Part shown: positions 33,600-51,634 of the stretch, one piece after another
How the letters are laid out: each line of letters starts with the position of its first letter
Position numbering within the stretch: position 1 is the first letter of the stretch
Assembly (NCBI RefSeq): GCF_902143375.2
Contig: NZ_CABFVA020000014.1
Coordinates: forward strand, 1 to 61,500
DNA length: 61,500 nt
Direction of reading: 5' to 3'
Source of the DNA: Methylacidimicrobium tartarophylax
GTDB lineage: Bacteria; Verrucomicrobiota; Verrucomicrobiia; Methylacidiphilales; Methylacidiphilaceae
Position numbers and translations under genes: made by a program
Notes under the pieces: model-generated
The model's database searches: none
The model's input: the letters and a program-made list of their open reading frames with translations, nothing else
What the model was told of the DNA's origin: nothing

Positions 33600-33689
33600 A
33601 GGCTTCTGGTATCTGTATCTTCGTCCTTCTTTTTACGGGGCGGGCGAGGTAAAGGCAATCGCCGCGCGCATTCCTACCCCGCCTGTCTG

Positions 33690-33844
33690 GCCTGCATATC
33701 TCACAAGCGATCTCCTGCGGCTTGCGAAATGGACCTGCTTGCTTCGTTGCGCCTTGCATCCAGGCCCATCCGCCGCGCCTCGGGTACGAACTTTGTGAGA
33801 CAGGCAGGCTGGCAAGCCGCAGGAGAAAGGTTGTGGGAAATGGC
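33690..33844 (+). repeat. Dispersed palindromic repeat, composite copy R3
   Basis: Two joined pieces. Positions 33690-33809 are a type A copy (ends GCCTGCATATCTCACAAG and CTTTGTGAGACAGGCAGGC) that has lost the apex: after GCTTCGTTG the sequence jumps to CGCCTTGCATCCAGG, omitting the GGTTTTCC...AAAACC hairpin. Positions 33811-33844 are the left end of a type B copy in inverse orientation (GCAAGCCGCAGGAGAAAG, ending in GGGAAATGGC). It lies between divergent genes, upstream of the secreted paralogue pair. Confidence 0.85.
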
Positions 33845-33905
33845 GGCTGGATCTGCTGGTTGGGATTCTCGGGCTTGGTCTGCTACGCTCTGCGGCGGAA
33901 GATTC

Positions 33906-34673
33906 ATGTCGACCGTCACCCTGCTTTCCCGCCGGCTGCGAGCCTCTCGTCACCGGCTTTTTGCGCCGGTGGCACTCGTCTTGTTCCTTGCCGCTTTTGC
34001 TCTAAGCCCCCCGGCCCGCGCCCAGGAGTTGCCGATCCAGATCGTTTGGGTCCGTCAATATTACACGCTCTTTCTCGCGAAGTCGCGCTCCGGAGGGGGG
34101 CCTCTCCAACCCTATGTTCGCTGCCTGGTCTATCTCCAATTCCGGAATTGGGGACCTCCGCAGCGAGTGCCCATGGGGCATGGCGAGAGGCCCGACTACC
34201 CGAATATCCGATTTCGGGTTTGGCGGAATCAGGTGCCGATTCCTTTCCAAAGACACGTGATTCCCCGCTTGGGAGCGCAGGATTTGTACGAAGTCAACTT
34301 TGCCGCGGGGGAGAGCGTTCGCGTCACCTACGACTATGTCGAGCAGGTCTTGAGCCACAATCCGGAGGAGAAGGTCGATGTGTTCGAGGATACCTGGGGG
34401 TTCGAAGGGTATCGGCCGCCCCTGGAGGATTGGTGGATCGTGGTCGAGCTGGGAAAGATGTATACGCAGTATCAAGCATCTCCCGGTTTCGGGCAGAGTC
34501 CTGCGACACCGGCGCTTCCGTATCAGACCTTTTTCAACCGGATCTTCCGGGTTTCCCCGCATGGTTACCAGAGCCGGGGAACCGAGATCTGGTGGCGCTT
34601 TCAGGATGTGGGAGAGGAGAGGATGCATTCGTTCCCGAAGTTGCGGGTCGAGTGGCAGGCCTGGTACCGCTAG
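33906..34673 (+). CDS. Uncharacterised secreted protein, first of a tandem paralogue pair
   Basis: A 255-residue protein with a signal peptide (basic start, then LFAPVALVLFLAAFALS, cleavage near ARA/QELP). I do not recognise the family. Strongly shared with the next gene: FRVWRN, YVEQVL, DVFEDTWGF, RPPLE, RIFRV and EWQAWYR at the C-terminus. The two proteins align end to end without large gaps. Many Trp, Tyr and Pro residues and no cysteine in the mature part suggest a beta-rich extracytoplasmic domain. ATG 33906 opens the signal peptide. The gene lies about 60 bases after repeat R3. Confidence 0.75.
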   Translation: MSTVTLLSRRLRASRHRLFAPVALVLFLAAFALSPPARAQELPIQIVWVRQYYTLFLAKSRSGGGPLQPYVRCLVYLQFRNWGPPQRVPMGHGERPDYPNIRFRVWRNQVPIPFQRHVIPRLGAQDLYEVNFAAGESVRVTYDYVEQVLSHNPEEKVDVFEDTWGFEGYRPPLEDWWIVVELGKMYTQYQASPGFGQSPATPALPYQTFFNRIFRVSPHGYQSRGTEIWWRFQDVGEERMHSFPKLRVEWQAWYR

Positions 34674-34693
34674 CGCGGAGGAACGCCGAGGCC

Positions 34694-35440
34694 ATGGTTT
34701 CGGGAATCCGCGGAGGGAGCAGGCTTCGTTCCCCCCCAATTTCTCCTGCGCTGATCCCTTTGGCGCTGCTCTGTTTCCTATGGTGCGGAGGACGAACGGC
34801 GCCCGCTCAGGGCAGGTGGGTTCAGTTGGTTTGGGCGCTTCAATCCTATACCGTCTTCCTTCGGGAAGTTCAATCCGGTGACGATCCGTGGCGGCCTGCG
34901 GTACGGTGCCTAGTCTCTCTTCAGCTGTACAACTGGGGCCCCGATCAATCCTTCACGATGAGCCACGCCGAGGTTCCGCAATATCCGACCATGGCATTTC
35001 GCGTCTGGCGCAATCACCGGCCCATTCCCTCCCGAAAGCTGGGATCGGACGACTACTTCACCGTTTCTGCCTCTTCCGGCGAGAAGGTGAGGATCTCCTA
35101 CGAGTATGTCGAGCAGGTCCTTCCGGCCGATCCGGCGGCGAAGATCGACGTTTTCGAGGATACCTGGGGTTTTACCGGTTTCCGTCCGCCTCTCGAAGAG
35201 TTGCAGGTAGCCGTCGATCTCGGCCCGATGTACGCGGACTACCGGGCGTTCCCCGCCTTTGGACGGAATCCCGCAATTCCGGCTTATTCCTACGAGGAGT
35301 TTTTTCTCCGGATCTTTCGCGTCTTCCCGCCGGGTTATCGGATGCGCGGGAGGGAAGTCTGGTGGCGCATTCACAATGGAGCTCCTCATCTCACCTCGGC
35401 CTCGCGCCTTCGCATCGAGTGGCGGGCTTGGTATCGGTAG
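34694..35440 (+). CDS. Uncharacterised secreted protein, second of a tandem paralogue pair
   Basis: A 248-residue paralogue of the upstream protein, 20 bases away in the same direction. A signal peptide (SPALIPLALLCFLWCGG) precedes a mature start near APAQGRW. Shared blocks: RCLVSLQLYNWGPDQS, FRVWRN, YEYVEQVLPADP, DVFEDTWGFTGFRPPLEE, FFLRIFRVFPPGY, EVWWRI and RIEWRAWYR. No catalytic signature is evident. Co-expression of the pair suggests a heteromeric or functionally split exported complex (inference). The function is unknown. Confidence 0.75.
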   Translation: MVSGIRGGSRLRSPPISPALIPLALLCFLWCGGRTAPAQGRWVQLVWALQSYTVFLREVQSGDDPWRPAVRCLVSLQLYNWGPDQSFTMSHAEVPQYPTMAFRVWRNHRPIPSRKLGSDDYFTVSASSGEKVRISYEYVEQVLPADPAAKIDVFEDTWGFTGFRPPLEELQVAVDLGPMYADYRAFPAFGRNPAIPAYSYEEFFLRIFRVFPPGYRMRGREVWWRIHNGAPHLTSASRLRIEWRAWYR

Positions 35441-35468: not shown

Positions 35469-35819
35469 TCAGCGCCAAAGCCGGTAAGCGGCGTAGAGAA
35501 GAAAAACCGCGAAAGCCCGTTTGGCGTAGACCGCCGGGATCGCTTGAATGAAGAGGGAGCCGAGGGCGGCGCCCGCCGCCCCGGAGAGGGCGATCACCGC
35601 AAAGAGGTTCCAGTCGATCTGCTTGAGGGTAAAATTTGTGAGGCTGCCTGCCAGGGCGATCGGCAGGATGAGGGCGAGCGAAGTTCCGACCGCGGTATGA
35701 TAGGGTACCGCAAAGGAGAGGATCAGGATCGGGACGAGGATCGAGCCTCCGCCGATTCCGAAGCAGCCGCTGGCAAAACCGGCAACCAGGCCCAGCAGGG
35801 CGAGAGCGAGCAAGTGCAT
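35469..35819 (-). CDS. Half-size TauE/SafE (DUF81) family membrane protein
   Basis: A 116-residue membrane protein with about four helices. It begins MHLLALALLGLVAGFASGC and continues FGIGGGSILVPIL and HTAVGTSLALILPIALAGS, the motif set of one TauE/SafE repeat. Full family members have two inverted repeats (about 250 residues) and export sulfite or sulfoacetate-type anions; a single repeat would need to dimerise. The start codon overlaps the divergent miaA GTG by six bases. Confidence 0.8.
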   Translation of the reverse strand: MHLLALALLGLVAGFASGCFGIGGGSILVPILILSFAVPYHTAVGTSLALILPIALAGSLTNFTLKQIDWNLFAVIALSGAAGAALGSLFIQAIPAVYAKRAFAVFLLYAAYRLWR

Positions 35820-36740
35820 GGTCAAGAGATAGGAGGCTGGATCGCCCGGGTCGAGCCCGGCGAGCCGCTTTTTATCGTCGGCTCGACGGGTGTGGGAAAA
35901 ACGGATCTGGCGCATGCGGTCGCTGAGAGGTCTGCGGCGTGGATCCTCTCCATGGATTCGATGCAGGTCTACCGGGGACTCGATCGAGGGACGGCAAAAC
36001 CCTCCCGGGAGGAGCGGGTTCGCTTTTCCTATGGAGGGGTGGATCTCGTGGATTGGCGCGAGCCCTTTTCCGTCGCGCAATATCGGGAACACGCCCATGC
36101 TTTCTTGAAAGCCTGCACGAGCCAGGGGCGCCCGATCATTGTGGTGGGAGGGACCGGCCTCTACTACCGCAGCATGGTGCAAGGTCTCTGCCAGGCGCCT
36201 CCGGGAAATGCCCTTCTTCGACAGGAACTGGAGGCGCTCTCCACCGCCGAGCTTGGGGGGCGGCTTCAGGCGATCGATCCGGGAGCGGCCGCCCGCATCG
36301 ACCTGTGCAACCCCAGGCGCCTGATTCGAGCGATCGAGGTCAAGGAAACGACGGGCATCTCTCTCTTGGATTGGCAGAAAGAGACGACACGACCCTTGCT
36401 GGCGCGCCATCGCACGCTTTGGGTGGAGCGGCCGCTTGCAGCGTTGCGCGAGCGGATCGCCGCGCGGGTCCGTAAAATGCTGGCCTCCGGGTGGATCGAG
36501 GAGGTGGCGGACCGTCTGCGCGAGGGGGGGGCGGCAACCCTTTCCCGCTGCCCGGCCATCGGTTATGCCTCGATCGCGCAATTCCTGGTTCAGGGAGGGA
36601 GCCGGACGACACTCGAGGAAACGATTGCTCGGGACACCTTCCGGTACGCACGGAAGCAGTTGACTTGGTTTCGGAAAGAGGCTACGGTCAGTCAACATGT
36701 GATATTTGAAGAGCATGGTCCTCTTCCCCGAGTTCTCTAG
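35814..36740 (+). CDS. miaA: tRNA dimethylallyltransferase
   Basis: A 308-residue enzyme adding a dimethylallyl group to N6 of A37 in tRNAs reading U-starting codons. The P-loop is GSTGVGKT (residues 23-30), then LSMDSMQVYRGLDRGTAKP, IIVVGGTGLYYRSMVQG, RRLIRAIEV and RKQLTWFRK. GTG 35814 is the only plausible in-frame start close to the domain but has no clear ribosome site and overlaps the divergent TauE start. The gene leads a miaA-hflX-radC-lpxA series. Confidence 0.92.
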   Translation: MHGQEIGGWIARVEPGEPLFIVGSTGVGKTDLAHAVAERSAAWILSMDSMQVYRGLDRGTAKPSREERVRFSYGGVDLVDWREPFSVAQYREHAHAFLKACTSQGRPIIVVGGTGLYYRSMVQGLCQAPPGNALLRQELEALSTAELGGRLQAIDPGAAARIDLCNPRRLIRAIEVKETTGISLLDWQKETTRPLLARHRTLWVERPLAALRERIAARVRKMLASGWIEEVADRLREGGAATLSRCPAIGYASIAQFLVQGGSRTTLEETIARDTFRYARKQLTWFRKEATVSQHVIFEEHGPLPRVL

Positions 36741-47145: not shown

Positions 47146-47330
47146 TAGCCTGCATGTCTCACAAAGTTCGTATCCGAGGGGCGGCGACTGGGCCTGGATG
47201 CAAGGCGGGGCGCAGGTTTTTCCCCGGAGCTGTATGACGACATACTGCACGGAGGAAAAACCAAGACCCAACGAAGCAGACAGGTCCATTGCGCAAGCCG
47301 CAGGAGAACGCTTGTGAGACATGCAGGCTA
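47146..47330 (-). repeat. Dispersed palindromic repeat, copy R4 (type A ends, inverse orientation)
   Basis: A 185-bp full copy with nearly perfect ends: TAGCCTGCATGTCTCACAA at the left and TTGTGAGACATGCAGGCTA at the right. The apical stem is GGTTTTTCC against GGAAAAACC, one T-A pair longer than in the other copies, a paired change. The last three bases are the stop codon (TAG) of lolD. It lies between ilvE and lolD, upstream of ilvE. Confidence 0.92.
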
Positions 47331-48119
47331 GGAGGATGGCTTGGATTCCGGCTCGAGCCGCGACTCCGAGGAGGCTTTCGGAGATCCGGGCACCGAGGAC
47401 AAGACGACGGAGGAACGCTCGAGGGTCTCGAGCTTTCCTCCGCTCAAGACCAACTGCCGATCTCCTCTCTGCGCCAACCGTGGATCGTGTGTTGCCAGAA
47501 TCAAGGTCTTGCCTCGGCTCTTCTGGAGACCCAAGAGGAGATCAATGACCTCCATGCCGGTTTCCTCGTCCAAGTTTCCTGTCGGCTCGTCTGCGATCAG
47601 GATTTCCGGATCGTTCCGGAGCGCGCGTGCGATAGCCACGCGCTGCTGCTCACCCCCCGAAAGCTCCGAGGGGCGATGGTGCGATCGATGGATCATGCCG
47701 ACGGCTTTCAAAAGTTCCCATCCTGGTTTTGCATCCCGCTGTCCGAAGAGCATGGCTGGAAGATTCACGTTTTCCAAAGCCGTGAGTTCGGGCAGGAGAT
47801 GGTAGGCTTGGAAAACCAGGCCGATTGCCCGTCCTCGCCATGCGGCAAGCCGCTTACGGGAGAAGCGGGAGATATCCTGATGCCGGTAGAGAACCTGCCC
47901 GGAATCCGGATCTTCGAGTCCCGCGAGGAGATGGAGCAGCGTCGTCTTCCCCGATCCGGAGACCCCCTGAATGGTGTAGCAGAGCCCTTCGCGGAAGATC
48001 ATGCTCACCCCGGTCAGCACCGGAACGGTCGCGGATCCTGCGCGAAAGCTCTTCTGGAGGGTTTCCGTCGCGAGGACAGCAGCGCGTTCCGTCTTCTCGC
48101 GGGATTCGGTCTCATTCAT
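47328..48119 (-). CDS. lolD: Lipoprotein-releasing/MacB-like ABC transporter ATP-binding protein
   Basis: A 263-residue ABC ATPase of the LolD/MacB/FtsE group. Walker A is QGVSGSGKTTLLHLL, the signature LSGGEQQRVAIARAL, Walker B ILIADEPTGNLD, H-loop ATHD. With the adjoining LolC/E-type permease it would extract lipoproteins from the inner membrane. Its last 30 residues (after GGKLETLE) are Ser/Pro-rich and end at a TAG inside repeat R4, suggesting that insertion of the repeat set the present stop. ATG 48119 overlaps the permease gene by eight bases. Confidence 0.88.
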   Translation of the reverse strand: MNETESREKTERAAVLATETLQKSFRAGSATVPVLTGVSMIFREGLCYTIQGVSGSGKTTLLHLLAGLEDPDSGQVLYRHQDISRFSRKRLAAWRGRAIGLVFQAYHLLPELTALENVNLPAMLFGQRDAKPGWELLKAVGMIHRSHHRPSELSGGEQQRVAIARALRNDPEILIADEPTGNLDEETGMEVIDLLLGLQKSRGKTLILATHDPRLAQRGDRQLVLSGGKLETLERSSVVLSSVPGSPKASSESRLEPESKPSS

Positions 48120-51452: not shown

Positions 51453-51634
51453 ACCTGCATGTCTCACAAGCGATCTCCTGCGGCTTGCGAAATGGACCCT
51501 GTCTGCTTCGTTGGGCCTTGGTTTTCCCTCCGTGCAGTATGTCGTCAACCAGCTCCGGGGCAAAACCTGCGGCCCGCCTTGCATCCAGGCCCATCCGCCG
51601 CGCCTCGGGTACGAACTTTGTGAGACATGCAGGT
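51453..51634 (+). repeat. Dispersed palindromic repeat, copy R5 (type A ends, full length)
   Basis: A 182-bp full copy. Ends ACCTGCATGTCTCACAA and TTGTGAGACATGCAGGT are a perfect 17-base inverted repeat. Inner arms pair: AATGGACC region against GGCCCAT, and GGTTTTCCC against GGGGCAAAACC with one mismatch. It lies between hisC and the phosphatase gene, both on the minus strand. Used here as the reference copy. Confidence 0.93.

Follow-up and report, generated by a model that had tools for sequence, protein, structure and literature searches.

Tandem secreted paralogues of Methylacidimicrobium tartarophylax belong to a Methylacidiphilaceae family with a predicted DUF4424-like beta-sandwich

The nearest described counterparts in fold of the two proteins analysed here are DUF4424 domains (PF14415), secreted beta-sandwiches of the Gram-negative envelope represented by Legionella lpg2210 (structure 4g2a). 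The accessible text of PMC3848476 relates DUF4424 to the N-terminal domain of M1 aminopeptidases, proposes an auxiliary role in large complexes, and describes a pairing with YARHG, which is thought to bind near peptidoglycan. What DUF4424-type domains do was raised as a question in the same text in 2013. Similar sandwiches form the N-terminal domain of M1 aminopeptidases and leukotriene A4 hydrolase, where a zinc peptidase domain follows, and occur in ribophorin I/Ost1 of the oligosaccharyltransferase and in the inter-alpha-inhibitor heavy chain, which are eukaryotic, multi-domain proteins of a membrane complex or carrier. Two further sets of described proteins enter the comparison through genomic position: the cytochrome c XoxG and the solute-binding protein XoxJ, and the entry-exclusion proteins TrbK, Eex and TraS. 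The latter are a different type of protein from those studied here. In the accessible parts of PMC11493245 and PMC11045733, the exclusion factors described are small lipoproteins or membrane proteins.

We analysed two adjacent genes, A and B, in a window of 61,500 nucleotides from M. tartarophylax (assembly GCF_902143375.2, contig NZ_CABFVA020000014.1), whose features are collected in Table 1. Genomes are denoted G000 for M. tartarophylax itself, a draft assembly, and G001 to G012 for the other Methylacidiphilaceae. The initial annotation had described a tandem pair of secreted paralogues, 255 and 248 residues long, set 20 bases apart and alignable along their whole length. Translation and BLASTP bore this out, with 119/235 residues identical (51%, E 2e-83). 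Both N-termini carry a basic stretch followed by a hydrophobic helix (residues 19-32 of the A model and 20-31 of the B model) and an AxA site, ARA-Q in A and APA-Q in B, which we read by eye as signal-peptidase sites. Hence, the signal peptides proposed for both proteins were supported by inspection and by the models alike.

Table 1. Features of the A/B locus, in positions of the window
Feature	Position	Strand	Description and basis
Gene A	33906-34673	+	255 aa, ortholog group A; translation, orthologues, dN/dS, AF2 model
Gene B	34694-35440	+	248 aa, paralogue, group B; translation, 51% identity to A, AF2 model
Signal peptide of A, residues 1-39	33906-34022	+	Cleavage after ARA, read by eye
Signal peptide of B, residues 1-38	34694-34807	+	Cleavage after APA, read by eye
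Mature beta-sandwich domain of A	34023-34670	+	Ends in nearly invariant AWYR; predicted model, DUF4424/M1-N-domain-like fold
Mature beta-sandwich domain of B	34808-35437	+	Predicted model, fold as in A
R3, dispersed genome repeat upstream of A	33660-33870	none	At least 67 matches in own genome

The shared motifs listed in the initial annotation (FRVWRN, YVEQVL, DVFEDTWGF, RPPLE, RIFRV and a terminal EW-AWYR) are all present in both translations. Its view of a perfectly kept core and an invariant C-terminus held for the AWYR end, which is nearly invariant family-wide, but DVFEDTWGF is limited to the clade formed by A and B. Across 43 family sequences, the kept positions are P99, D158, L182, G196, P218, G220, W230, W250 and W253. 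The neighbours of the pair are an aminotransferase gene, a half-length TauE gene, miaA and a DinG-like helicase gene, the DinG label coming from sequence reading. The half-length TauE/SafE gene (window 35472-35822, minus strand) encodes 117 residues that match only positions 1-108 of a 237-position model, and near-identical DNA stands behind A in G003.

AF2 models built from 20 sequences predicted one beta-sandwich after the signal peptide in each protein (A: pLDDT 85.1, pTM 0.77; B: pLDDT 84.5, pTM 0.77). In A, the helix is followed by a low-confidence stretch and the ordered fold begins at residue 44; in B, the ordered fold begins at residue 43. The best solved structure for both predicted models was 4g2a, with Z 15.1, rmsd 3.3 and 179 aligned residues for A, and Z 14.8, rmsd 3.1 and 173 aligned residues for B. 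Next came Ost1/ribophorin I (Z 12-13), followed by M1 aminopeptidase N-domains (Z 10-11) and the inter-alpha-inhibitor heavy chain (Z about 11, within the same range). We conclude that the beta-sandwich shared by DUF4424, M1 aminopeptidase N-domains and ribophorin is the predicted fold of A and B, and that the prediction is of good confidence.

Each likeness has limits. A and B lack the YARHG tail of DUF4424. Unlike M1 aminopeptidases, they stop where the sandwich stops, lack a zinc peptidase domain and have no Pfam match. Identity to ribophorin I/Ost1 and the inter-alpha-inhibitor heavy chain is about 5-13%. DUF4424 was not among the seven families matched by the 43 members at E ≤ 10, and PF14415 had no match in the M. 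tartarophylax genome. Aligning our family alignment (A1) with six DUF4424-like Verrucomicrobia proteins in hhalign gave a probability of 1.4% and E 0.038, both profiles being shallow. We therefore rejected DUF4424 membership by sequence: a structural match lacking sequence support justifies describing these proteins as folding like DUF4424, not as members of it.

Library searches returned no clear match to a characterised family. For A and B there were no families at E ≤ 10 in Pfam or NCBIfam and none at E ≤ 1 in PHROGs, and a sequence search of the PDB gave no relative. The weak matches across these searches (4lu4, 2rso, Mcp5_PH and others) were scattered and unconvincing. The earlier statement that the pair belongs to no recognised family thus stands with respect to the libraries, but A and B form a single clade within a larger family whose predicted fold is known. 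The sequence family itself is new, while the fold it is predicted to adopt is not. Word searches of the literature found no description of the family; the lipoprotein in the accessible part of PMC10260701 is a different protein of 139 residues. We also rejected a viral origin, because a scan of viral contigs and a tblastn search of plasmids with A both found no relative. The few BFVD matches at E ≤ 0.001 with a telling name were M1- or ITIH-like proteins of giant viruses.

Using a profile of 43 members and taking family positions from HMM hits, we found the family in 11/13 Methylacidiphilaceae genomes (11/60 relatives) and in 0/47 other genomes of the order. By genus, it occurs in 7/7 Methylacidimicrobium genomes, in 4/5 of a second genus, Methylacidiphilum by inference, and in 0/1 of a third. 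The genomes without a member are G008 and G010, and the 11 positive genomes have 3-10 matches each. Four fragments were dropped before alignment A1. Besides A and B, the M. tartarophylax genome encodes three solitary copies, all on other contigs, which makes five members. The check on copy number across Verrucomicrobiota that had been suggested for the pair placed the family only in Methylacidiphilaceae among the genomes searched, with members in 5/387 genomes of a phylum sample in which at most seven candidates per genome were scored. A contig scan with one C-terminal pattern missed the Methylacidiphilum members; its 13 loci belong to Methylacidimicrobium, to strain LP2A or to MAGs labelled Methylacidiphilaceae. 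Given these search designs, absence elsewhere holds within these searches only.

The history of the two genes differs. Orthologues of A are present in all six other Methylacidimicrobium genomes at 71-87% identity, so that A occurs in 7/7, while B occurs in 2/7 (G000 and G004) and has one intact copy besides our own. Pairwise dN/dS is 0.10-0.27 among A orthologues and 0.17 between B and its one orthologue. Together with the orthologues of A, these ratios imply that the genes are real. Purifying selection and the predicted fold agree with the earlier proposal of a defined fold under strong constraint. In a tree of 52 intact copies, which we chose from the profile matches leaving fragments out, B from G000 and G004 branched as the sister group of the A clade with its seven orthologues (support 100/99 for A+B and 94/95 for A). 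This position implies that the duplication took place before these species diverged and that five of them have lost B. A remnant survives in G003, where the final ten codons and the stop codon of a B-like gene stand some 45 bases downstream of A. The initial annotation had held that both versions are needed together. We rejected such an obligate pair, as B is absent from 5/7 genomes holding A despite a duplication predating the species. The ratios and the losses of B indicate constraint on A in every species, with B as an optional addition.

In 7/7 Methylacidimicrobium genomes, a paralogue that we call C100-type closes a co-oriented run of genes in which it follows xoxJ and a cytochrome c gene. 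The xoxF gene is in view at 6/7 of these loci, the seventh contig starting inside xoxJ. Three XoxF sequences aligned from C100-type operons have Asp before the metal-binding Glu, which the accessible part of PMC8546591 gives as the mark of XoxF1; three second Methylacidimicrobium copies and Methylacidiphilum XoxF, aligned alongside, carry Gly there. The order xoxF1-xoxJ-xoxG is given for M. thermophilum AP8 (loci 1700-1702) in the accessible part of PMC7907005. Family members are unrelated in sequence to XoxG and XoxJ. A second member lies directly upstream of xoxF1 in G002, and a C-terminal relic of a member occupies that side in G001 and G005. The conserved fourth gene that closes the XoxF1 operon, from a family unnamed in the libraries searched, makes a concrete candidate for an accessory factor in assembly or electron transfer. 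Co-orientation with xoxF belongs to the C100-type paralogue; A and B lie outside the operon. XoxF is present in G008 and G010, which have no family member, and no member stands near Methylacidiphilum XoxF. As a separate observation, the XoxJ-like solute-binding protein of the xoxF1 operon is a fusion with some five ankyrin repeats (L033:3872-5482 and L088:5519-7132); a literature search combining xoxF, xoxJ and ankyrin returned no paper.

Other paralogues are placed at a T4SS-like cluster. The TrbL/VirB6-like and VirB5-like labels used here are our own, from sequence character, and library support exists for the ATPase only (TraG-D_C 35.9 bits against a cut-off of 22, with VirB4_CagE below its cut-off). 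The ATPase was found in 23 plasmid records, and the TrbL-like and VirB5-like proteins had no matches in plasmids. In G001 and G005, members sit inside the cluster between an AAA gene and a TrbL-like gene. In G007, G011 and G012, a member follows the last gene of the cluster operon by 7-22 bp on the same strand, and in G009 a member lies about 1.8 kb from the end of the operon, also on the same strand. Members overlap or trail (by ≤ 61 bp) a TrbL-like membrane gene in 4/4 member-bearing Methylacidiphilum-type genomes. This TrbL-like gene is relocated, and its coupling to members takes the form either of a single member or of a tandem array that includes TrbL copies shortened in frame. In all, paralogues adjoin a VirB6/TrbL-type gene in G001, G005, G007, G009, G011 and G012; A and B do not. 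Chance linkage to the cluster has P about 3e-4 for 3/9 loci, where we counted the independent loci ourselves and took the cluster to be 35 kb long.

In the G007 array, members differ mostly in two loops and have mean dN 0.089 and dS 0.42, compared with 0.015 and 0.13 for the neighbouring TrbL tails. This implies that it is chiefly the secreted gene that generates or retains diversity. The array spans L036:6380-13703 and L037:33-3983, with most family genes coupled to full or shortened TrbL-like copies. In G010 (L117 and L118), the member is missing both at the cluster end and at the TrbL-like gene, and both sets of neighbours are kept. The cluster is present in G003, G004 and G006 with no member within the cluster stretches examined. 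In the draft assembly of M. tartarophylax, we did not find the VirB4-like, TrbL-like and sigma-like markers of the cluster. A protein with a match to sigma-70 region 2 is encoded inside the cluster (L104:12385-13470) and is kept across two genera.

We interpret the family as lineage-specific, non-catalytic periplasmic docking or accessory proteins whose paralogues are tied to different envelope machines, and we put the probability of this reading at roughly 45%. Accessory or adaptor proteins are the simplest explanation for an exported, probably non-catalytic fold of docking type whose copies stand at the ends of operons for different envelope machines. Each member would be exported and fold into one non-catalytic beta-sandwich, a domain that elsewhere acts as an auxiliary part of larger complexes, for docking or for holding a substrate. 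The family would have spread by duplication, with paralogues becoming attached to different envelope machines: one would serve the XoxF1 methanol-dehydrogenase operon, and others would be linked to the T4SS-like cluster and its polytopic membrane protein. The domain would presumably work by docking, with a periplasmic or envelope-located protein as its client. A and B would be adaptors with an unlinked client, B being a dispensable specialised duplicate. The observations behind this reading are the export signal, the predicted fold, the family limits in our searches, the operon positions and the purifying selection, from which we infer all functional steps; docking is suggested by the fold, and a shared fold does not in itself show function. 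Several observations count against it. The aminotransferase, half-length TauE and miaA genes put no envelope machine beside A and B, some other paralogues have a malic-enzyme-like gene or purK as a neighbour, and members and XoxF are not mutually dependent across the family (G008, G010 and Methylacidiphilum).

A more detailed proposal assigns one paralogue to the XoxF1 lanthanide methanol dehydrogenase as a component or assembly factor, has others tune the T4SS-like system via the VirB6-like protein, and makes A and B adaptors of an unlinked envelope complex. We regard it as tentative and, taken as a whole, doubtful. The T4SS-linked copies with an A/B-type fold nevertheless offer a small, testable set of paralogues for the role of DUF4424-type domains.

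Alternatively, the members could have a general envelope role, binding peptidoglycan or lipid of the outer membrane and keeping the periplasm stable at low pH, their operon positions being incidental. The hosts are acidophiles, and one group per genus lies near a D-Ala-D-Ala carboxypeptidase-like gene (cluster c11, labelled from sequence reading). The pairing of DUF4424 with YARHG, as given in the accessible text of PMC3848476, would also fit, but family-library searches found neither YARHG nor another wall-binding domain in the family. Incidental placement would leave unexplained the co-orientation with xoxF1-J-G in 7/7 genomes and with the T4SS-like operon, and G008 and G010 live without the family. 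This explanation appears unlikely.

It is also rather improbable that members are exclusion or immunity proteins of a chromosomal T4SS-like system, blocking incoming transfer via the donor's VirB6/TrbL-like protein, with arrays providing several specificities and A and B as orphan immunity genes after loss of the system. Such a role would account for the coupling to the TrbL-like gene in all four member-bearing Methylacidiphilum-type genomes and its array in G007, for the placement directly behind the operon in three of the four, with G009 more distant, and for the single cluster interval filled in G001 and G005. It would match the five members kept by M. tartarophylax without the three markers. 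The array members do diverge far more than the TrbL tails, but the loop windows still have dN below dS and give no support for positive selection there. In the T4SS-less species, A shows dN/dS of 0.21-0.27 versus 0.18-0.23 for similarly close pairs, which is purifying selection of ordinary strength and not the relaxed constraint that might follow T4SS loss. Furthermore, the XoxF1-operon copy lacks a T4SS link, G010 has the cluster and no member, the cluster is only putatively conjugative, and the exclusion factors described in the accessible parts of PMC11493245 and PMC11045733 are unlike the family's fold.

A set of mobile or drifting paralogues that travelled with IS605/TnpB elements and share no role is highly improbable: TnpB-like genes stand by members in G001, G005 and G007, and fragments and stop-bearing copies exist, but four orthologue groups occupy matching places in most or all Methylacidimicrobium species and group A is under purifying selection (0.10-0.27). 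IS605/TnpB-like genes beside several family loci (L041:10308-11564, L044:9118-10311 and L084:5348-6829) may have been a means of dispersal.

As the initial annotation stated, the pair lies downstream of the repeat R3, a dispersed genome repeat outside the protein system. This stretch of 211 bases contains inverted repeat arms at 33672-33725 and 33812-33865 and is built of two modules, at about query positions 27-97 and 91-151. Beyond its matches in M. tartarophylax, R3 has 56 in G003 and 2 in G002, and repeats of the same type also occur in the window at 47147-47331 and 51454-51633.
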